This document shows, piece after piece, positions 4,101 through 58,744 of a stretch of DNA of 64,000 bases (its first letter is position 1; the number at the start of each line of letters is the position of its first letter). The DNA is taken from contig CM049316.1 of assembly GCA_026874595.1 (NCBI GenBank), positions 66,259,176 through 66,323,175 on the forward strand. Direction: 5' to 3'. The stretch is from Sipunculus nudus (Eukaryota; Annelida; Sipuncula; Golfingiida; Sipunculidae). The notes beneath the pieces are model-generated. The model was given only the letters and a program-made list of their open reading frames with translations, did not search any database and was not told where the DNA came from. The translations under genes and the position numbers were made by a program.

Positions 4101-7100
4101 GGTGTTATTAGTGTGGCTTTGCAGTATGAAACTAAAAATGTCCAATATGGGGACTCAAACCCTGTGCAGAAGATACTGTTCAAAGTTGACAAAATATATT
4201 GTCACATGCTGTCTTAGTATAACATGTGCTATAAAAGCCCATAAAACACTCATTCCTGGGTTATTTACACTTGGATTTACACAAGAATTTAACTTTGTGG
4301 ACACTTTCACAATACCAACCTGTATGATAAATATCTCCAGATATCGTGCACAGGTTAATTACCACCTTTCTATGGGAATGATGCAGTAATAATAAATCAG
4401 TGGGGCAAATTTGAACAAGATTATTGTTATTTATGGTAACTATCACTTTAAAATGTCTATCTCCTGATATAAGGTTAGCTTTAATCATATTTCAGCTCAA
4501 TGCAGTGAAACTTTGTTTTTCCATTCAAATGTATAAGAATATAAAAAAAAGAGTGGTCCAGTTTTAATGCCTTACTCCAACCTTATGTGTTTCACTAAAT
4601 GAACACAGGATAACACTGAGATGCAAAAGCAGTTTTACTGTAATTCATAATGAAGTACCTGGTTTAATAAATTTGAAGAATTGCTGGAATTTATCATGAG
4701 ACATATATGCCAAAAAGTATTTGAAAATTAATTGTTCCACTGATTACTTTTAAAAATGCTTTACAATTACAGTTACTTTCAAGGATTAGAAAATAAAATC
4801 AATTAAAATAACAGTTACTTGAAAAATAATTGTATTTACAATTATTTCAAATAAATTACTCTTGGACCCAACTCTGATATGCATGACATGAGATACAAAG
4901 GAAAAGAAAGAACAGACTTTTTTTATTGTGTTTGAATTAATATATTTAATACAGCATTTCCAGGTTCTAGGACATAATCTTGCAAACATAGTTTTATTCA
5001 TTGTCACTATATATGAAGACTGCATGAACACGTGAAATGTAAGAAATCTGATAAAGACATTGAATCTTCATTTCAAGAAAATAATCCAAAATTTTCAGGA
5101 TTGAGTTTTTCAAATTATTGAACCTCAGCTGTGTATGTCATATACTGTCATTGCCTTTCTGTTCGAGAGGGTTTCAAATTTGCGATATTCGCAAAAAAAA
5201 GTATTATTGTGAAAATAAAACCTTTCTGAATAAGAGACCTTATTGTTGAAGTCAGGTTTAAAGTTGTAAGACTGATATTATGAATAAAATGTCTTGTATG
5301 GGGAAAGATCGCTACTATAAATCATACCAGATCTTTCAAATTATCTTTGATGTACAATAGTTTCCACTAGGCTGATGTTCCCTTTGATAAAATTGTTAAA
5401 ATTTTGCGCACATGTTATTTGATATAATTAATTAATAAAATACTGATTATACTATGTATATTATGTGAGATTGTGAAAATAGAACCATCAGGAAACAATG
5501 AAAATTGAAAATTTGGGAATTTGTTTATATCTTAATGATATTTTACATGTTGCCAGGATCACATGGCTACCAGCTATGGACGAAGCAAACACTGGGAAGA
5601 GGTGCTGGCTGCTGGATACAAGATTGGGGACCATGAAAAAGCAGAGGACCTCTACAAGGAGATCACACAAAAACTACCTGATTACTTTGAGGTAACAAAC
5701 CCAAATCACTTCACTCCTAAAACTAAATTTTTCTTTTTTTATCCCTGGCAAAAACCACTAAATTTAAAATCAAACATAAATTTGTTTCAAATGCACATTA
5801 GACCACATAATGTAAATATTAGTTTAATCCTAGGACAGAGCACTTTTTTATGGTAAATGTGTTTTGTATGTATATGTATTTATGTATTTCATGTCTATAA
5901 AAGAAATTGTAATTTTTTTATTGAATCAAAAATTTAAAATTCAATTTTAAGTAAAGAAACATGATACTAAAAACAAGAAAATGGTTCTTAGATTATGTCA
6001 TGTAGTTTGTTATTAGCCAATTTAAAAGTGGTTTGCTGTTACTGGTTGCTTAAAATAAAAATTTTGAAAATGTTAAAATTTCAAATGAAAATGAATGTGA
6101 ATTGTCTTAAATACATATACCATTAGCAAGAACTCTGTACCTGGTTTAAAATGGGTTTTGTGAAATCAAAGAAATGGAAAAGATTATAAACATTTCATAG
6201 ATTCTGATCTTGCTCAACATTCGATATATTCTAAGTATGAAAAAAATTTGATTGAATTATAAAAATATATTTTTTATATTAAAGCAAAATTTCTTAATCT
6301 AAGAGATGCAAACTTTCTAAATCTAATAAATGCAAAATTACCTAATCTAAAAAATGCAAATTTTCTTAATAAAATATTATAAATTCCCTAATCTAAAAAA
6401 TGCTAAATTCATTATTCAAAATGCCATCAGTGGATTTTACTTTGAGCAATATGAGCACATTTTTAGGGATTTTGCAAAATAGAAGAAATGAATAAGTTTC
6501 AAACATTTGTTATATTCTAAGTATGGATATTTGTATCCGCCAAAACAGAGTTTTGCGGATACTATGTTTTCAGCCGAACACCGCCGCTGCCGCGTAGGTG
6601 TTTGGAGAACTCCTCCGTAACCGCTGGGTGGAATTTTACGAAACCCGGGATTATGTTCGGGTCACATGTGAACTGCTGCGCCCCGATTTTGTTTTGACCT
6701 GTAACTTTTCCTCTCTGCCCAGCGTCCATTAGTGCATCTGTTTCCATACATAAACCCACATATCTCATGAACCGTTTGACCGATCAAGAAAAGAATTCTG
6801 TACAAGTGTAGCCCTATGATAGCTTTATAACATACACACCTGGCGCCACCTGCAACCATGTTTGCACAGTGTCCATCTGTTCATCTGCCTTGGATTAAAA
6901 CCACTCATATCTCTGCAGTGGTTTGATTAATTCACCTGAAATTCGGCATGCGTATACATCCTGGACAGCTTTCTTGATTTTATGACAGGTGGCGCCACCT
7001 ACATTCACATTCACGCTGCAGACATCCAAGCTCATTTCTCGGGAACAGTTTGACTGATTGGGCCAAAATTTTGCATGTGTGTAGATCTTACATAGCTCTT

Positions 7101-9348
7101 TATTATACGCAAAACTGGTGGACCCACCTGCAACCATTTATGCACAGCGTCTGTTTGTCTGCCGTGGGCTGATAATATCACTCATATCTCTGCAGTGGTT
7201 TGACATATCTGCCTAAAATTTTGCGGTTTTTTATATCCTGGACAGCTTTCTTGATTTTATGACAGGTGGCGCCACCTACATTCTAGTTTATGCTGCAGAC
7301 ATCCAAGCTCATATCTTGGTAAACCGTTTGACTGATTTGGCCAAAATTTTGCATGTGTCTAGATCTCACATAGGTCTTTATCATACACAAAACTGGAGGG
7401 GCCACCTGCAACCATTTTTGCACAGTGTCCATCTGTTTGTCTGCCGTGGGCTAAAATCACACATATCTCTGTAGTAATTTGACTTATCTCAAAATTTTGC
7501 ATGTTTATACATCTTGGCTGGCTTTCTCAATTTTTTTGGCAGGTGGCGCCACCTACATTATGCTAACGCTGCAGACATTCAGGCTTATATCTCAGGACAA
7601 GTTGGACATATCCCCCTGAAATATTGCATTTGTATAGATCTCACATAGCTCGTAATCATACACAAAATTGGTGGCCCCACCTGCCACCATTTTTGCACAA
7701 GTCCTTCTGTTTGTCTGCTGTGGGATAAAATCACTCATATACATGTAGTGGTTTGACTTTTCTGCCTAAAATTTTGCATATGTATACAACTTGGACAGCT
7801 TTCTGGATTTGTGGTATGTGGCACAACCTACATACACATTTCGGCTGCAGACATCCATGCTAATATGCAACACACCTTACTCTATTTCCCCTTGCCACTC
7901 AATCCATGCCTCACTTCACCCGTTCCACTCTGAGTTAGACGGATACATGTAGTCGCTTGTCGACTACCCGTATTCTAGTTATATAAATGAAATATAAAAA
8001 TATATTTTTGCTTGAAACTTGGACTAAGAAAGACATCTGATTTGAACATTTATTCAGTTTGACATTTTGACTCCTTACAGGGATGGATTGACCCATTTGC
8101 TAATTCAAGTCGATCTGGTCTGTGGTCCACCATTCTCATGTCCGTCCTCAGCCAAGGTAAACCAGGTAGGTATATATGGAAAATTCTATTAAGCTTTAAA
8201 ATATTGGTCTTCATATTTTCTCAATTAACCTTGCTTGTCAAGCAAACATATTCCAAAACTCATTATTTTATCATATAACACAATTTCCTATGAAAATTAT
8301 ATTAATATAGGTTTTACATAAAATGAACCCAACTTTTGGAAGAAAAATATTTTTTCTATTTATTTTTTCCGCCAATACAGGAGGTTGTGTGATTTGTTCA
8401 AAAACTATTGGTACATCAATGAGCACTGTCAACTTGGCAGTGTAGTCACACACGGGGAAAATCCCTGTGATTATTTTCCCTGTGATTGAAAATTCTAAAT
8501 CTCATCAAAGTTTAGTATTTCTGACACTTTCAGTCCCAATTTTTCAGGGAAGAATAAAAACAACATGTGTTGCTAGATTTCAGTTATTTCTAAATGTTGC
8601 CTGTGACATCACACTTTGCACCAGCCAATCACATCAGGGCCGAGTCTCTGTTCTGGATAATATTCCATACACATAACTCCACCATGTGCTATTTGGTTTA
8701 CCTAACCTTAAACTTCAAACTATTGGTTTTCACATTTCCCCAATTAATGCTGCTGTTCATTGCTTCTCTTCCAATCAAATATTATCAGGGTTGGTTTTTA
8801 GAAGCTTTTTAATTGACACCTGAGAAACCTATGCATGAGACTTGAAACCACAGCTTATAGTTCTTGGGGCATAATTTAATATAATAAGGCACAAAGTATC
8901 CTGCCTAGAATGTATGTTTTTACCCTTATTGCAATCCTCCACCTACATCTTATTTCATAAATTTGATTTACAAGTACACAAGTTTATATGACACCAGAAA
9001 TCTCTCCATATACAGATTTACAAATTTTACAATTTAGAATTTTCTTTTTGCAATTTTAAGCATTAATAAATCATATTATAGCTCTTGAGCTTTGCTTTAT
9101 TGTGAATTATTAATCAAACATATTTAACAATTTCTTTGGTTATAAAGTTAGAATAGATATTCTTTTCTTTATAGACTACTTTTGTTTTTTTCATAGACTG
9201 GAAGACAGAGCATTATTCTGATGTTGCCATGCTGTTATAGAATACATTTTGTTTTGTAGACTGGAAGACAGAGCATTATTCTGATGTTGCCATGCTGTTA
9301 GGTTCATGTGATGATGTCTACAGTGCTGATGTCCCCACTGCCTTACAG
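1164..9348 (+). CDS. Exons 1-6 of the PEP-utilising enzyme gene: region before the helical core
   Basis: These six exons encode HSDEGGPDTKVPSLLQIYAD..., then QSQRYYGFSTIPLPPQKNL, YQNWLYEYHVAG..., DHMATSYGRSKHWEEVL..., GWIDPFANSSRSGLW... and WKTEHYSDVAMLLGSCDDVY.... The sequence is hydrophilic and helix-rich, with no signal peptide or membrane segment. Exon 1 is read in the frame that joins exon 2 (TT then A forms a Leu codon), using the donor at 1231. A second frame is also open across 1164-1256 with another good donor at 1257, but it hits a stop in exon 2. Introns 3 and 4 (2538-5556, 5692-8080) hold MITEs and the 1.4-kb hairpin-ended element. Intron 6 is the longest at 4.5 kb. Confidence 0.8.
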
Positions 9349-34164: not shown

Positions 34165-35680
34165 TTGGTTGGTTCCACTGCCAAGTGTTTTATCCCTGAA
34201 ATTCTTCAAAAGGGACAAAAAGGCCGAATTTGAACTTTTTGAGGAACTCTTTATGCTACTGGTTATACTAAATTCCAGAAATGCCGCCCCCGCAAATGTA
34301 CAATTCGTTCGCTAATCATTCTGTAGGTTTCACTGTCCAGTTTATAATCCCTGGAATACTTGATCATGGGACAAAAGGCCAAATTTATACTTTTTGAGAA
34401 CTCCTTATGCCATTGATTATACTAAATCCCAGAAATGCCGACCACAACAAAACGTTCGCTAATCATTCTGTAGGTTCCACTGTCCAGTTTATAATCCCTG
34501 GAATACTTGAACATGGGACAAAAGGCCAAATTTGTACTTTTTGAGAACTCCTTATGCCATTGATTATATTAAATCCCAGAAATGCCGCCCATAAAAAAAA
34601 TGTACAAAACGCTCGCTAATCATTCTGTAGGTTCCACTGTCCAGTTTATAATCCCTGGAATACTTGAACATGGGACAAAAGGCCAAATTTGTACTTTTTG
34701 AGAACTCCTTATGCCACTGATTATACTAAATCCCAGAAATGCCGCCCATAAAAAAATGTGCAAAACGTTCGCTAATCATTCAGTAGGTTCCACTGTCCAG
34801 TTTATTATCCCTGGACTACTTGAACATGGGACAAAAAGGCCAAATTTGTACTTTTTGAGAACTCCTTATCATACCTTATGCCACTGATTATACCAAATTC
34901 CAGAAATGCCGCCCATGAAAAAATGTACAAAACGCTCGCTAATCATTCAGTAGGTTCCACTGTCCAGTTTATAATCCCTGGAATACTTGAACATGGGACA
35001 AAAGGCCAAATTTGTACTTTTTGAGAACTCCTTATGCCACTGATTATACTAAATCCCAGAAATGCCGCCCATAAAAAAAATGTACAAAACGTTCGTTAAT
35101 CATTCAGTAGGTTCCTTTGTCCAGTTTATTATCCCTGGACTACTTGAACATGGGACAAAAAGGCCAAATTTGTACTTTTTGAGAACTCCTTATCATACCT
35201 TATGCCACTGATTATACTAAATCCCAGAAATGCCGCCCATAAAAAAATGTACAAAACGTTCGCTAATCATTCAGTAGGTTCCACTGTCCAGTTTATTATC
35301 CCTGGAATACTTGAACATGGGACAAAAAGGCCAAATTTGTACTTTTTGAGAACTCCTTATCATACCTTATGCCACTGATTATACCAAATTCCAGAAATGC
35401 CGCCCATGAAAAAATGTACAAAACGCTCGCTAATCATTCAGTAGGTTCCTTTGTCCAGTTTATTATCCCTGGACTACTTGAACATGGGACAAAAAGGCCA
35501 AATTTGTACTTTTTGAGAACTCCTTATCATACCTTATGCCACTGATTATACCAAATTCCAGAAATGCCGCCCATGAAAAAATGTACAAAACTTTCGCTAA
35601 TCATTTGGTAGGTTCCATTGTCCAGTTTATAATCCCTGGGATACTTGAACATGGGACAAAAAGGACAAATTTGTATTTTT
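34165..35680 (+). repeat. Ten-copy 147-168-bp satellite
   Basis: The word 'gtccagttta' recurs at 34335, 34482, 34639, 34795, 34962, 35119, 35285, 35453 and 35620, with a degenerate first unit at ~34178. Each unit runs 'ccctggaatacttgaacatg', 'ggccaaatttgtactttttg', 'agaaatgccgcccat', 'cgctaatcatt'. Spacing switches between ~157 and ~167 depending on a 10-base 'atcatacctt' insertion. No ORF persists through units. Confidence 0.95.
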
Positions 35681-35796
35681 TTTTACGCAAAATGTGCCGC
35701 CCGGGGCGGACCGCCCCTGCCGCCCCCCCCCCCCCCCCCACCCCCCTTAGGTACGCCACTGCCTAAAGATTGTCACGCCTGTGTTCGATCATTGAC

Positions 35797-38441: not shown

Positions 38442-39685
38442 ATGTTCCCTCTCATAAACACCATAAACACTATATCAGATGAAGCTAAGAGGAGTGAAAA
38501 GGGAGCATTTAGCGTACATGACCTCCTGAGGATTGGCAGAGACTGTGAGCAGACCAGAAACCAGGTCCGACTGAGACAAAAGATTATCGTCTCGGATGCT
38601 GGCGCTTTCATTTTCTTCTCTTCGGGAAGCACTGGTCAACCAAAGGCTGTTCTATACTCCAACTTCAGAATACTAAACACAATGTACCAGTATTTGGATG
38701 AAATGGGATACACAGAAGATGACAAGCATGTACTTGATACCCCTTTTTCCCATCTGACAGGATTTGTCTTTGGGTTTTGTTTCCCTGTGGGCTACGGAGC
38801 ATCATCCGTAAGAGTGTCGAAAAAATCCCTGGTCATTCTGCCTACGCTAGAAGTTTCAACGTTCAGCGGTTCATAGAAAATGAAAGGTGTACCTTGGCTC
38901 TCCTGTTAGGATTTGTTATTTATGATCTGGTCCATGAGCCCAAAGTAAACCAGTTAGACCTGTCGTCACTGAGAATGGTGAGCACAGGTGGTCAAAGCTT
39001 GTCGGAAGAAAACGTGACCAAACTGTGTTCTCGTTTCCCAAATATAAAGCTGCTTCATTGTTATGCAATGACAGAGTGTATGGTTGCATTGAACACGAAG
39101 GGGTCAGATTTTCTCTGGATGAGTATTACTGGCAATAGAGAAGTCAAAATCATCGAACCAGACAATCAGGTAGTTCCGAGGAATACTCCAGGGGAGATAT
39201 GTGTACGGTCCAACACCACCATGACTGGTTATATAATTGATGGCAAAGTGCACCCTGGGAAAGACGAAGAGGCATGGTTCCATACAGATGATAACGGGAT
39301 CATGAACGATTCCGGTGAGTTGTACATAATTGGTCGAATGTCTGACATCATCATAAGAGGGCCGTCAAATGTCCCGGTCGGACCACTGGAAGAAATTCTT
39401 GACGGTCATCCCAAAGTGAAGAAGAGTGCCATTGTACCTGTGCCTGATCCACGACTTGGTTATGACCTATGCGCGTGCATTATCCCTTCCAACCCCGCAG
39501 TAACTGAAACAGAAGTGCTTGATTGGTGCTCACTTAAGTTTGGAAATGATACAAATGGGGTAAACCTGCGGCCAAAAATGTGTCTTATCCTTGATGATTT
39601 CCCCCTGTTGGCGACGGGAAAAATTTCGAAGTCGAAACTGAAAGAACTGGTACTTAATCGGTTACAACATGTTCGGAAAATTTGA
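38442..39685 (+). CDS. ANL-superfamily acyl-CoA synthetase / 4CL-like enzyme, 3' part, with a frameshift
   Basis: The ANL (acyl-/aryl-CoA synthetase, luciferase, NRPS adenylation) signature motifs appear in order. They are the ATP-binding P-loop FFSSGSTGQPKAV (38.61-38.65 kb), the A5-like HCYAMTEC (39.06 kb), the A7/A8 segment WFHTDDNG...GELYIIGRMSD (39.28-39.34 kb), and a C-terminal PLLATGKISKSKL with the Lys used in adenylation. Such enzymes activate a carboxylate with ATP and pass it to CoA. The substrate cannot be read from this. About 150-200 residues usually found before the P-loop are missing. A stop sits directly before the ATG at 38442, and an acceptor 'tatatcag' at 38478 is an alternative true exon start. 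The reading frame changes by one base at an A6 run (38820-38825). Seven A would keep it open through to TGA 39683-39685. In A7 the usual TGD reads TDD. This is either a decaying copy or an intact gene with a homopolymer miscall. Confidence 0.78.
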
Positions 39686-46522: not shown

Positions 46523-47580
46523 AATAGAAGCTCGAATATCCGAATAGTTTGGAGGCATAACATTTGTTCGTGAATTAGAGGTTACGGATATGCGAGGGGC
46601 ACTGTTTTTTTCAATACGTATACCGATACTACAGCCGTACAGGTACACGCGAGCGTATCAATTAAGGTTTCAATATGCTAATCCTGATCTTACCAGTAAC
46701 GGTATCTCAGCAGAATTTTTTTTCTCAATCTTATTTTTATATAAAAACGGCGAACCGTTTACAATTATTGTAATCTATTTCAAAAATAGAATGAGCAACT
46801 TTCTTCATATGTATACAACTGGCAATGGTAGCGATAATATCCAATAAATTGACGGTTTTGGTCCATGCCGCCAGGCTGAAAGTTTGCACACAGTACTCTT
46901 GTTATAGGCTAACAGGTGCTGACAACTACGGGTAGTAACATAAATGATTTTACATGTATGTTGGGTATGACGGAACTACACTAAATATAGGAGTTCGCAA
47001 GCTACGTAAATACTCAGGTGTAGATCGTTATATACATCACTGAAAGATTCAAGTAGATTGTAATTAACTTTTATCCAAATTACGGTGGGAGTGTCACAGC
47101 CTATAACGACACAGAAAAATGTCATGTTTTACATTTGTAAAACCTGACTGGGTTTTGCGATCACAGAGCCAAACTGATAACACAGATACCTCAACATGAT
47201 GAATTCTTACCAAACTTAGAGTTTGTTTATGAACGGGGAAGCACAAAGATACATTCATAGAAAGATCAAAGCAAAGGGTACAGTGTTAGGTCAGTACACG
47301 GACAGGTGATGCGATGAATGTAGCACCGTAAGTCTTCCTGACAAAAGCTCTCAATAACCCATTAAGCTTAATTAGGCGCGCTGATCGGGCCATTTGTTAT
47401 TCTGCACGGGCTAGTGAATGCCATTCAGGCAATTATCTCACTTTCGATAATTTGGTAAAATATATTTTACCAATGCTGTATTACTACTTTTCAGTTAAAA
47501 GAGGTAAATTTCGGTCCCCCAATTTAAATGTCAAAAAACGAATATTTGGAAAACGAGATACGGAAATTCGAGTTCTACTA
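46523..47580. mobile_element. pogo/Tigger-like element (non-autonomous or decayed)
   Basis: The left end TAGAAGCTCGAATATCCGAAT and the right end 'ggaaattcgagttctacta' form an imperfect inverted repeat of the 'AGTAGAACCTCGAATATCCG' style found in pogo/Tigger elements, at TA borders. The interior (~1 kb) has no convincing transposase. Superfamily is from terminal sequence only. Confidence 0.55.
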
Positions 47581-47635
47581 TAAATATATATAAATATATA
47601 AATATATAATTAATATGTATATACGTCAAATTCTA

Positions 47636-47700
47636 ACAACATTCACCTGATGATCGGGTCGCATCCCGTGAAACAGACTGTAGTGAATTTACAGTGTTGT
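47636..47700 (+). ncRNA. Type I hammerhead ribozyme, minimal Penelope/retrozyme type
   Basis: All core parts are present in order. Helix I is ATTCAC (47641-47646) with GTGAAT (47683-47688). The core CTGATGA is at 47647-47653. Helix II is CGGG (47655-47658) with CCCG (47665-47668) and loop TCGCAT. GAAA is at 47670-47673. A short helix III is ACA (47673-47675) with TGT (47679-47681) and loop GAC. The cleavage-site base is A47682. Helix I continues beyond a 7-base bulge with ACAAC (47636-47640) / GTTGT (47696-47700), and the bulge could dock with loop II. The one departure is a T-T apposition next to the core in helix II (47654/47669). Very short helix III is typical of hammerheads in Penelope-like elements and metazoan retrozymes. 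A further hairpin CCAGAG/CTCTGG lies downstream at ~47708-47728. Confidence 0.88.
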
Positions 47701-47751
47701 TTTTCTCCAGAGTTATACCGCTCTGGCTTTACATCGGAGGGTAACACTACC

Positions 47752-47817
<66 letters not shown>

Positions 47818-48340: not shown

Positions 48341-49771
48341 AGGAAATGTTATCATCAGAATGGTAGTATATACTCATTCAACTGAAGCATCAAACAGATT
48401 AACCAACAGGCCAAGATAAAGTCTGTATTTACATATCTCAAAAATAGAGAAAAAATGTGTAAACTTTAAAAACTAGAATATGGGTAGCCGACAAGTGACT
48501 ACGTGTATCCGGCAAAATAAGAGTGGAACGGGTGTAGTGAGGCATGGATTGAGTGGCAAGGGGAAATAGAGAGAGGTATGTTGCATATTAGCATGAATGT
48601 CTGCAGCCTAAATGAGTATGTAGGTTGTGCCACCTACCACAAATCCAGAAAGCTGAACAAGTTGTATACATATGCGAAATTTTAGGCAGAAAAGTCAAAC
48701 CACTACATGTATATGAGTGATTTTAGCCCACGGCAGACAAACAGACAGACGCTGTGCAAAAATAGTTGCAGGTGGCCCCTCCAGTTTTGTGTATGATAAA
48801 GACCTATGTGAGATCTAAACACATGCACAATTTCGGCCCAATCGTTCAAATGGTTCCTGATTTATGAGCTTGGATGTATGCAGCGCTAACTAGAATGTAG
48901 GTGGCGCCATCTGTCATAAAATCAAGAAAGCTATCCAGGATGTATAAAGCTGCAAAATTTAAGGCAGTTATGTCAAACCACTACAGAGAAATGAGTGATT
49001 TTAGGCCTCGGCAGACAAACAGACGGACGCTGTGCAAAAATGGTTGCAGGTGGCCCCTCCTGTTTTGTGTATGATAAAGACCTATGTGAGATCTAAACAC
49101 ATGCACAATTTTGGCCCAGTCGGTCAAACTGTTCCCGAGATATAAGCTTGGATGTCATCAGCATGAACGTGAATGTAGGTGGTGCCACCTGTCATAAAAT
49201 CAAGAAAGCTATCCAGGATGTATACGCATGCCGAATTTCAGGTGAATTAGTCAGTTCACTGCAGAGATATGAGTGATTTTATCCCCAGGCAGATACACAG
49301 ATGAACACTGTGCAAACATGGTTACAGGTGGCGCCACCATTTTTTGTGTATGTTATAAAGCTATCCAAGGGCTACATTTTTATTAATTTTATTTCCTGAT
49401 CGGTCAAACGATTCCCGAGATATGAGCTTGGATGTCATCAGCGTGAACGTGAATGTAGGTGGTGCCACCTGTCATAAAATCAAGAAAGCTATCCAGGATG
49501 TATAAAACTGCAAAATTTTAGGCAGATATGTCAAACCACTGCCGAGATATGAGAGACATTATCCCACGGCAGACAAACAGAAGGACGCTGTGCAAAAATG
49601 GTTGCAGGTGGCGCCACCAGTTTTGCGTATGATAAAGTGCTATGTTAGATCTATACACATGCACAAATTTGGGCTAGTCGGTCAAACGGTTCCCGAGATA
49701 TGAGCTTGGATGTCATCAGCGTGAACGTGAATGTAGGTGGCGCCACCTGTCATAAAATCAAGAAAGCTATC

Positions 49772-50539
49772 ATTCTTCATTCTTCTTACTTTATTCACTG
49801 GAGAGGGTTACAGGAGGCGGTTCCACCGAATTGGAGAGAAAGTATTAAAACAGGCTTGTCTAATGATGATATGTTATCTGACGAAATAATACCTATGGGG
49901 GATATATTTATTAATCTAGAGAAACTAAATTTTAAGCAAGTGTATAATCGATCGATCCTGAAAAAAATAGAAGAACCAGTGAACAAAGTAAATCTCCAAC
50001 GAGATTTAACCAACGATTTCTGTTGGAAGAAAGCTGTGAAGCATATATATGAAACAACAAAGGACATGTATTTGAGGCAATTCCAATTTAAAATTCTACA
50101 TAATATTTTGACTGTTAACGAGAAGTTATATATATGGAGATTAACAGATACCAATAGATGCTCATATTGTTTCATGGATACGGAATCGGTTTGTCATCTT
50201 TTTTGTGAATGTTTTTTGACCAAAGCTCTTTATTTCAATATTACAAGTTGGGCCAGTCGAGCAAGGATTTATATGCCAGCATTAACGAGAGAAATAATAT
50301 ATTCAGGGTGTTCAAGTGATGTTCCATATAAAAAGCTAATTGATATATTAATATTGACATATAAGTTCGTTATTTTTAAATATCGTAAGCAAGGAAGGGT
50401 CCCTTCGCTCTTTATATTTATCAAGTATATAAAAGATAAAGAATTAATCGAGCGTAAGGTAGCAGAAAAAGAAAGAGAAGTACATAAATATGTGGAAAAA
50501 TGGGGGAGAATACTCTCCATTTTAAATACCAGATGTTAA
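49772..50539 (+). CDS. LINE reverse-transcriptase ORF, C-terminal fragment
   Basis: The open frame enters from the host repeat (formal start 49700) and is LINE-derived from 49772 onward. It encodes ~255 residues with FQFKILHNILTVNEKLYIWR, then the Cys/His cluster CSYCFMDTESVCHLFCEC (C-x2-C-x8-H-x4-C), which lies after the RT domain in Tx1/L1-like and related LINE ORF2 proteins. The catalytic RT and endonuclease parts are absent by 5' truncation. It ends at TAA 50537-50539, followed by ~150 bases of 3' UTR. It is not a functional gene by itself. Confidence 0.85.
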   Translation: MLHSSYFIHWRGLQEAVPPNWRESIKTGLSNDDMLSDEIIPMGDIFINLEKLNFKQVYNRSILKKIEEPVNKVNLQRDLTNDFCWKKAVKHIYETTKDMYLRQFQFKILHNILTVNEKLYIWRLTDTNRCSYCFMDTESVCHLFCECFLTKALYFNITSWASRARIYMPALTREIIYSGCSSDVPYKKLIDILILTYKFVIFKYRKQGRVPSLFIFIKYIKDKELIERKVAEKEREVHKYVEKWGRILSILNTRC

Positions 50540-50740: not shown

Positions 50741-51468
50741 AAGAAAGCTATCCAGGATGTATACGCATGCCGAATTTCAGGTGAATTAGTCAATTCACTG
50801 CAGAGATATGAGTGATTTTAACCCAAGGCAGATGAACAGATGGATACTGTGCAAACATGGTTACAGGTGAGGCCACCGTTTTTTGTGTATGTTATAAAGC
50901 TATCCAAGGGCTACATTTGTATACATTTTATTTCCTGATCGGTCAAACGGTTCCCGAGATATGAGCTTGGATGTCTTCAGCGTGAACGTGAATGTAGGTG
51001 GCGCCACCTGTCATAAAATCAAAAAAGCTATCCAGGATGTATACGCATGCCGAATTTCAGGTGAATTAGTCAATTCACTGCAGAGATATGAGTGATTTTA
51101 ACCCAAGGCAGATGAACAGATGGACACTGTGCAAACATGGTTACAGGTGGTGCCACCATTTTTGTGTATGTTATAAAGCTATCCAAGGGCTACATTTGTA
51201 TGAATTTTATTTCCTGATCGGTCCAACAGTTCCCCCAGATATGAGGATTTATGTGTGGAAACAGAAGCACAAATGGACGCTGGGCAGAGAGGAAAGGTCA
51301 GAGGTCAACGCAAATTGGTTAGGCATCAGTTCACATGTGACCTGATAATTGGTGTAAGTTTCGGAAAAATCGGTCCATTATTCCCAGAGGAGTTCTCTGG
51401 AAACGAACGCGGCATCGGCGGAGGAACCCGGTCAAAAATATAAAACTTCGTTTTGGCGGATACAAAAA

Positions 51469-56622: not shown

Positions 56623-58744
56623 AACAAGTGGCCCATGGGCCATGACGCTTAGCTAATTTTGACTCGGTGCTCATGTTGTTTATTAGTGTTATATTATGTC
56701 TGTGAGAATAGGCTATGGCTAATGTTACTATGTTGAAAAAAGGACAGAAAATAAAAAATTCAGGATTCATAGGAGACCTGCCCAGGACCTCCCTGGATTT
56801 CACAATGGAGGGCTCCAAGGAAATTTGATACACTTTGTACCCTGTCTGTCTGGGTGCTCAAAATCATGTTTCTGGTCCATAGCTCACAGAATAACAGGTC
56901 ACTATGACCCAATTTCAGGATTCCAAGGAGAATTGCCAAGGACTTCTCTGAATGTCATGTTAGAAAAGTCCAGATCTAACGGATACAAATGTGCCCTGCT
57001 GACTGCTAAAAATCATGCTTCTGGACAGTAGCTTGCAGAATATAAGTCACCATGACCTTATTTAATATCTAAAAAGTATATTTGCCCATGACCTAGGCCT
57101 AGTGCATTCAATTTGTACCCATCTGATGTTAAAGGTACTCAGATCATGGTTTTGGCCTGTCACGTGCTGGTTTCCAGTGGAATTTTCCAAGATCTCACCG
57201 GATGTTGTTTTGGAAGATTTTAGGGCTTAATATACTCTTTGTGCCCTACCTGACTGTATTTGACATGTATGATAAGAATTAATTTCCTAATTTCAGAATT
57301 CAAAGAATACTTGCCTCTCTAGACATTTCAATAAAAGGTTCACAGGAAAAAATATACAATTTGTACCTTGTCTGTCTGGATGCTCAAATTCATATTTTTC
57401 TTTGCTCATAGTGAATAGAATATAGTCTGTGCTCCATTACATATAATATCTGGTTTCCAAAGAAATATGCCTAGAACCTCACCGGATGTTGCTTTAAAAG
57501 ATTCTAGGCCTAATAAATACAATTGGTGCCTATCTGACATTCAGGGTGACATTCAACCTCCTTGAATATTATGTTAGAATATTCTAGGCTTAATGGAAAC
57601 AATATGTGCCCCGTCTGACTCTCTAGGAGCTTATATGACATTTTTCTGCCTGAGCTGCAGTAAAGTCCGCAATTATCTATTTTCAGGTTTCGAAAGAGAT
57701 GTGCCTAGAACCTCCCTGGCTTTTTGTGTAAGACGATTCTGGACTTAACAGCCTCCCTGAATATGACGTTAGAAGATTCTACTATTTCTAAGCCTAATGG
57801 GTACAATTTATGCCCCGTCTAACTCTCTGGGTGCTTATATGACATCTTTTCGTAAAGGTCGCAAAATATAAGTCATGGTGACCTTATTTCAGTTTCCAAG
57901 GACATTTGCCAAGGACGTCTCATAATTTACATTAGAAGATTCTAGGCCTGACAGATACAATTTGTGCCCTGTCTGAGTGTCTGGGTGCTCAAATCATGTT
58001 TATGGTTCGTAGGTCAGAACATATAGGTCAATATTACCTGATTTCAGGTTTTCAAGGAGATTTACCCTTTTTCTGACCACAGGTCATAGAATATATGTCA
58101 CCATGTCCTAATTTCAGTTTTCCAAGGACATCTGCCTATGATCTACCTGAATGTCAAGTTGGAGAATTCTAGGCTTAATGGGTTCAATTTGTGCCCCATC
58201 TGACTGTCTGGGTACTTAAAATCATGTTTTCAGTCGATAGGTTACAAATTATAGGTCATCATGACCTAATTTCAGGTTTCAAAGGAGATTTGCCTAGAAA
58301 CTCCCAGGGTATGGTATTAGAAGATTCTAGTCCTTACAGATACGATTCGTCCCCATTTGACATTCAGGGTGTTCATATGACATCTTTTCCCTGAAGGTTG
58401 CAGAATATTGGTCACAGTGACCTTATTTCAGGTTTCAAAGGACATTTGCCTAGGACCTCCCTAAATGTCACGTTAAAGGATTCCAGGTCTATTTGTACAA
58501 TTTGTGCCCCGTCTGACTGTCTGGGTGTTAAAATCATGTTTTACGTTCGTAGGTCACAAAATATAGGTCACTATGACCTAATTTCAGGTTTTCAAGGAGA
58601 TTTACCTAGGACCAACCTGGATGTAGAATAAAATGTTTCTAGGTCTAACTGTTACGATTTGTGCAATGTTAACGGCCAGACAACCGGCTGGACACCAAAC
58701 AAAGGGCGATCGCTATAGCTCAGATGACTTACATTTAGTTGAGC
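56623..58744 (+). mobile_element. Family A element, full-length + copy
   Basis: The 5' end is 'aacaagtggcccatgggccatgac' (with the palindrome GGCCCATGGGCC), then 'gcttagcta'. The body has ~13 diverged ~150-bp units. The 3' end is 'ggacaccaaacaaagggcgatcgctatag' and the hairpin 'agctcagatgact...agttgagct', ending 58744. GGTCAnnnTGACC palindromes occur at 56897-56909, 58254-58266, 58410-58422 and 58566-58578. No ORF over 80 residues is credible. Confidence 0.82.

Follow-up and report, generated by a model that had tools for sequence, protein, structure and literature searches.

A type I hammerhead motif in a very probable solo pseudo-LTR of a high-copy Penelope-like retroelement from Sipunculus nudus

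The stretch of Sipunculus nudus DNA analysed here, 64,000 nucleotides in length (hereafter the window), carries a type I hammerhead ribozyme motif on its forward strand. The segment that bears the motif is, with high confidence, a solo, 5'-truncated pseudo-LTR (pLTR) with its tail, derived from a high-copy Penelope-like retroelement; this confidence covers the identification jointly with the mechanism of insertion and ribozyme action proposed below. Hammerheads in Penelope elements are already known, and the segment adds a new family rather than a new phenomenon. The U-U pair beside the core, the competing hairpin and the TA-pairing loops described below are details of this family that may or may not be new. 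Among the papers listed by a literature search combining hammerheads with Penelope-like elements, bivalves or molluscs, none could be tied to this Penelope-like family. The features of the segment, in window positions, are as follows.

47579-47629, + strand: AT-rich 5' flank, the other half of the target
47630-47753, + strand: solo 5'-truncated pLTR and tail of the Penelope-like element, from family homology
47635-47701, + strand: type I hammerhead ribozyme motif, from the descriptor scan and the family-built covariance model R1
47635-47646, + strand: 5' strand of helix I, outer AACAAC (47635-47640) and inner ATTCAC (47641-47646)
47647-47653, + strand: predicted catalytic core CTGATGA, from direct reading and from pattern and descriptor scans
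47654-47669, + strand: helix II, CGGG (47655-47658) with CCCG (47665-47668), loop TCGCAT
47670-47673, + strand: core GAAA, its last A opening helix III
47673-47681, + strand: minimal helix III, ACA (47673-47675) with TGT (47679-47681), loop GAC
47677-47695, + strand: competing hairpin ACTGTAG(TGAAT)TTACAGT, which occupies the predicted cleavage site and both 3' strands
47682-47683, + strand: predicted cleavage site, A47682 / G47683, from its position in the motif
47683-47701, + strand: 3' strand of helix I, GTGAAT (47683-47688), bulge TTACAGT (47689-47695) and GTTGTT (47696-47701)
47707-47726, + strand: hairpin CCAGAG(TTATACCG)CTCTGG, with TTATA (47713-47717) in the loop, the end point of tail-less copies against (TA)n
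47754-47816, + strand: junction CTA and (TA)n target, 3' side

The sequence-only reading of this DNA had stated that every base required of a hammerhead is in place. Direct reading of the letters bore this out, and the descriptor scan agrees. The invariant CUGANGA, GAAA, U16.1 and H17 are all present, and the three helices follow each other in type I order (6+6 bp in helix I, 4 bp in helix II and 3 bp in helix III). The same reading had described helix I as 6 bp followed by 5 bp beyond a bulge; the inner helix indeed has 6 bp, but the outer helix, past the one-sided 7-nt bulge TTACAGT, was also counted as 6 bp. Its segment of about 125 bp between two AT tracts was found as described, the tracts being AT-rich at 47579-47621 and 47755-47816. 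A standard pair usually adjoins the hammerhead core in helix II. In the window motif, T47654 and T47669 at this position form an unpaired T-T mismatch (U-U in the RNA).

The full descriptor (the core with helix I of at least 5 bp, helices II and III of at least 3 bp each, U16.1 and H17) gave one match in the 64-kb window and none in 150 dinucleotide shuffles. The bare CTGATGA...GAAA pattern is not rare, with three matches in the window and a shuffle mean of 1.49. The covariance model R1 scored 107 bits at 47633-47703, a score that holds by construction because the model was built from the same family. Rfam, searched over the whole window, returned no family at the gathering threshold. At E ≤ 10, 351 bases gave 18 weak matches with no hammerhead among them, and 73 bases gave no match. 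The Rfam covariance score that had been proposed as a check thus went against the motif, since no hammerhead model scores the segment even at this threshold. RF00163 searched genome-wide likewise gave no match, but 14 control genomes were equally silent and the search is therefore uninformative.

The family was then defined in the window's own assembly (1.43 Gb in 153 contigs). The 126-base segment gave 60 genome matches from 40 scored of 2283 candidates, and a 25-base core pattern, AACAGACTGTWGTGAATTWACAGTG, occurs at 1395 exact places, with none for the reversed-pattern control. Viral contigs gave 23 pattern matches and no relative. The window copy, which is tailed, solo and truncated on its 5' side at 47630, is identical to the copy at locus L031 in 98 of 98 positions over 47630-47727 and in 27 of 27 over 47727-47753; a 23-nt hairpin present in most other tailed copies is absent between 47727 and 47728. 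A single divergent relative was found, at L064. Its helix II is rebuilt as GCGGA/TCTGC, with a G-C pair adjoining the core and a G-C to A-U change relative to the main family, while its helix I is poor. A separate divergent family around L064 was considered and rejected, as there is one copy only and the other 31 matches belong to the main family at about 80%. At L064:901-1040 (+), about 0.5 kb from this divergent copy and in the opposite orientation, lies an old and degraded sequence related to the hammerhead segment.

The longer copies connect the segment to an element. In the nine examined, the segment is preceded by a 3' UTR shared among them; where copies extend further, a Penelope-type ORF end lies about 0.6 kb upstream of the motif and an ORF start 180 nt downstream of it. 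At L031, a frame ending in ELSKHIWSLKDNNINYKLSWEISAKAAPYSCGTRKCDLCLSEK stops about 0.6 kb upstream of the segment; we take these letters to be the end of a Penelope-type ORF. The order within each unit is hammerhead and tail, short leader, one ORF, about 0.6 kb of 3' UTR, and then the next hammerhead and tail. A nearly whole, broken unit extends from C9:63024050 to about 63027080 and shows, in order, a hammerhead, the leader, an ATG, YRDDG reverse transcriptase pieces, HYIxCTEG, the 3' UTR and a second, damaged hammerhead. Its ATG (MNKANFDYSLKNIPIPSN...) lies 180 nt after the predicted cut.

Profile matches to this ORF were weak. RVT_1 matched with an E-value of 4.6e-4, under its cut-off, and NCBIfam Drt3a with 6.8e-5, far under its cut-off. 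There was no relative in the PDB at E ≤ 0.5, and the predicted model of the reverse transcriptase was poor (mean pLDDT 40.6). The C-terminal motif HYIGCTEG...RYNNH, read by eye, is presumably GIY-YIG; the Penelope motifs were likewise read from the letters. The endonuclease part had no Pfam match, and Foldseek, given a poor model (mean pLDDT 53), found no fold at E ≤ 0.001. The weak profile matches and the motifs suggest that the ORF, which is probably of Penelope type, encodes a reverse transcriptase with a GIY-YIG-like end.

Complete units occur head to tail. Among the leader matches scored (40 of 220 candidates), C15 holds a tandem array of four units with spacings of 2926-2929 and C9 one of five units with spacings of 2930-2939, and C1 and C3 hold leader pairs at 2922-2929. 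At L058-L063, the 3' UTR, hammerhead, tail and leader are contiguous. A Penelope element typically has direct and shorter inverted pLTRs, an optional tail and an AT-rich target (PMC11167929, and PMC3846280 in its available portion). The present family has the head-to-tail arrangement, with a unit spacing of about 2.93 kb and the repeat between ORFs. A head-to-head inverted second copy was seen in 15 of 30 inspected loci, and in 13 of these 15 pairs one arm stops at reference position (ref) 128 and the other at 186-187, the exceptions being L010 and L023. At C1 55956934-55964122, two leader pairs with a spacing of 2924 each lie side by side in opposite orientation, forming a large inverted arrangement of full units.

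The copies have two recurrent 3' ends, which mostly adjoin (TA)n. Counted by eye among 70 copy extents, which include some single places present in two loci, 21 stop at ref 128 and 38 at ref 187. The short 3' end falls within the UUAUA loop of the hairpin at 47707-47726, just past the ribozyme. The tailed 3' end lies 59 nt beyond it (36 nt in the window copy) and adjoins, at the letters CUUCUA, a hairpin with the loop ACAC. After 11 of 12 short ends, at least 14 of the next 16 letters are A or T. Among 23 tailed ends, which include one place present twice, 20 adjoin A/T-rich sequence (5 of the 20 read by eye); two of the other three are one place, followed by the leader, and the third is L030. 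The optional 3' tail and the AT-rich target of Penelope-like elements are thus both found here, and the ends point to two start sites of reverse transcription. At L031:808-1608 (-), the ORF end is cut off by a (TA)n run on its 5' side; therefore, long copies too stop against TA repeats.

On the basis of these ends we propose the following mechanism of insertion. The endonuclease would open TA repeats, and the TA ends of the target would pair with UA in the RNA loop. Reverse transcription would then run back through the ribozyme and would often stop early, as in the window copy. If so, target-pairing letters beside the ribozyme may be a feature not only of the telomere Penelope elements but also of an endonuclease-type one.

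Comparison among copies gave a mixed picture. An intact core, whose loss in relatives would have counted against the sequence-only reading, is kept by 43 of 54 family copies. Core sites, however, change as often as others (12 of 594 core sites and 42 of 2808 other sites, four subfamily-diagnostic sites having been dropped from the latter count; Fisher P 0.37), and the claim that conservation of the core among copies shows function was thus unsupported. Because of this equal rate, the copies look dead on arrival. Conservation among copies therefore neither proves nor refutes ribozyme activity. Both mismatch places carry T in 53 of 54 copies, and T-T is found likewise in the tandem units; the mismatch is a trait of the family and no peculiarity of the window copy. 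Candidate compensatory changes in the helices come from the one divergent relative L064, the other copies being too alike. Positions 55 and 63, the base at the cut site and its partner in the competing hairpin, were read by eye in the first 100 of the 1395 places as T-A in 56, T-T in 28, A-T in 16 and A-A in none, that is, two paired states plus one mismatch. Covariation for the competing hairpin looked compensatory in the 54 copies, but is weakened by the 28 T-T places in the wider list. These letters seem to support the competing hairpin weakly at most.

An origin of the hammerhead pattern by accident would be in keeping with the frequency of the loose pattern and with the missing Rfam score. 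The full descriptor, however, matched none of the 150 shuffles, and the motif is placed where Penelope hammerheads are known and is kept in two subfamilies. On the shuffle test and the placement within the element, a chance motif was rejected; it is exceedingly improbable. The sequence-only reading had compared the minimal helix III with hammerheads of both Penelope-like elements and metazoan retrozymes. The first comparison held, as relatives of the segment join a Penelope-type ORF. Under the second, the segment would belong to the metazoan retrozymes, which are short tandem repeats without coding capacity that propagate as RNA circles. The mussel retrozymes (PMC7229834, from the part of the article available) share with the present family a type I hammerhead in repeated invertebrate DNA, and both the motif and the many copies would suit a retrozyme, as would the mussel repeats of about 350-390 bp reported in that part. 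The mussel retrozymes are, however, small non-coding tandem repeats expressed as circles, and the structure of the window family differs. Its tandem unit is about 2.93 kb and coding, not 150-450 bp and non-coding, so that the retrozyme reading is unsupported. The 5' extension of the segment is a Penelope ORF end and 3' UTR, and the short copies are solo or in inverted pairs without arrays, with one partial direct neighbour, at L029. The same portion of PMC7229834 describes retrozyme and Penelope hammerheads as co-existing and places the minimal variants with Penelope elements. For the window family, examined at 65 loci, a retrozyme was rejected on unit size and coding content, and we consider it very improbable.

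The alternative of most weight treats the hammerhead as a dead relic: the region would be kept for the competing hairpin and the priming stem-loops, and no cleavage would take place. The predicted folds give it some ground. Helix III adds nothing to the monomer, whose energy is -11.1 kcal/mol with it and -11.3 kcal/mol without it. The competing hairpin (47677-47683 with 47689-47695) is in the minimum-energy fold and has a probability of 0.98-0.99 in the free ensemble (0.989 in the window copy); restricting the ensemble to the active fold costs 8.2 kcal/mol relative to the free one, and 6.6 in the tandem subfamily. The U-U beside the core in 53 of 54 copies and the absence of A-A at the hairpin pair 55/63 among the 100 listed places would also suit a relic, as would the findings for the Anolis element that mutating the hammerhead does not abolish insertion in vitro and that reads ending at the cut are absent (PMC11167929). 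Against a relic, the core bases, U16.1 and H17 (A or T) are present in both large subfamilies, including L058-L063, and L064 has rebuilt helix II with G-C next to the core, though with a poor helix I. In addition, two ribozymes could pair through the near-palindrome ACAG-A-CTGT, which reads ACAG-T-CTGT in the tandem units. The double hammerhead, at -33.3, is better than two monomers at -22.2, but a pair of competing folds, at -37.4, is more stable than either; all these energies leave out tertiary contacts. We consider the relic a serious but rather unlikely alternative. Our preferred reading is that the ribozyme cuts weakly or under regulation. In the monomer, the competing hairpin would win over the active fold; the active fold could be favoured when two ribozymes pair through their near-palindromic helix III, or by the protein of the element, and would then divide multimeric transcripts into single units. 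A hairpin that competes for the predicted cut site would explain in concrete terms why such ribozymes seem weak in isolation.

The 5' ends of the copies bear on the RNA template. Since copying starts downstream of the cut, every copy that runs without a break over the predicted cut site came from RNA that was whole there, whether uncut or cut and rejoined. In the reference, the cut falls after 93 and the 3' ends are at 128 and 187. Nine TA-flanked copies with the leader have their 5' ends at ref 122, 125, 125, 125, 140, 144, 162, 162 and 178, all in or near the interval bounded by the two 3' ends. No TA-flanked leader-bearing 5' end was found in the scanned stretches ref 40-70 and 73-103. The scan requires exact anchors and TA flanks and so gives a small, pattern-chosen sample; it excluded ref 71-72, 104-117, 149-150 and 182-187, and one of its patterns tolerated no net deletion in its 70-nt gap. 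The pattern itself works, because 9 of 65 loci are matched once the TA prefix is dropped from the anchor. Outside the scan are L052, which starts at ref 25 and is not TA-flanked, and L054 and L056, which have inverted or rearranged junctions. Short copies do end within the ribozyme region. In the 41 TA-flanked ones (among the first 100 of 458), exact homology starts at q62-63 in 25 and at q55-57 in 11. Ends of cleavage products were considered and rejected, as no peak was seen at the cut among these 41 listed copies; three of the four short copies starting at q56 carry T55/T63 or the like, with homology continuing upstream.

The element might copy itself from a unit-length RNA circle made by its own hammerhead. 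Multimeric transcripts of the arrays would be cut into 2.93-kb units and rejoined into circles, and copying would go once around each circle, starting at the TA-pairing loop next to the ribozyme and finishing in that region. Such a template would account both for copies that pass over the cut site without interruption and for long copies whose start lies in the tail, the region in which copies also have their ends. The 5' ends might also be explained by cleavage of a linear RNA at the 5' hammerhead and arrest of reverse transcription in the structured tail, by a start of transcription in the tail, or by TA microhomology at the junction. We regard the circle as improbable. The role of hammerheads in Penelope-like elements has been termed unknown (PMC7761336, in the sections available). 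The present family numbers well over a thousand young copies, with full units in tandem and two sharply defined 3' ends, so that counting ends can test which RNA (whole, cut or circular) serves as template.

The closest parallel is PAc, a Penelope/Poseidon element of Anolis (PMC11167929). Like the window family, it has tandem units, an AT-rich target and a hammerhead at the junction of pLTR and ORF. Its reverse transcription starts inside the RNA, downstream of the ribozyme, and two adjacent start sites define its tail, which resembles the two 3' ends described here; its AC-rich stem-loop is likewise similar to the ACAC-loop hairpin before the outer 3' end. There are also differences. The hammerhead overlaps the ORF start in PAc, whereas the ATG of the window family lies 180 nt after the cut, and the target here is a TA microsatellite, unlike that of PAc. 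The start sites of PAc are reported as not homologous to the cut DNA, while here both 3' ends lie at UA letters able to pair with (TA)n; the TA pairing proposed here would therefore be a difference.

Penelope pLTRs have been described before as carrying minimal type I hammerheads (PMC7761336 and PMC6155905, in the excerpts at hand). As described there after Cervera and de la Pena 2014 and Lunse et al. 2017, they are of type I with a minimal helix III, as here, and, compared by description, agree with the window family in their pLTR location and in a proposed cleavage of dimers. In Terminons, the Penelope elements of rotifer telomeres (PMC6431247, from the passages available), a hammerhead likewise lies beside RNA letters complementary to the end of the target. 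These letters correspond to telomere repeats at chromosome ends, whereas here a UA loop faces TA microsatellites; the window family, set against Terminons, has an endonuclease-like region. For the Penelope elements of Adineta vaga, the available portion of PMC3846280 reports neither a hammerhead nor a microsatellite target, unlike the window family.

The window contains several other repeats and frames. Tandem arrays of 167-bp and 156-bp units occupy 34171-35681 and 58088-58659, respectively, and neither the descriptor scan nor Rfam found a hammerhead in them. The stretches 6846-7866, 48585-49771 and 50741-51182 hold a tandem array of units of about 277 bp and a related, oppositely oriented array of units of about 278 bp (82% over 1035 bp), and more related sequence is found just past these arrays; together they are probably one mobile satellite family. 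An open frame of 296 aa at 49649-50539 (+), directly after the 278-bp array, weakly matches the zinc-binding reverse transcriptase profile zf-RVT with an E-value of 1.7e-4, below the cut-off, and resembles the terminal part of a LINE-type element. Finally, overlapping frames at 38442-39685 (+) match AMP-binding enzyme domains with E-values of 1.5e-19 and 8.2e-7, and from these matches the region is a predicted acyl-CoA synthetase-like gene with a frame change.
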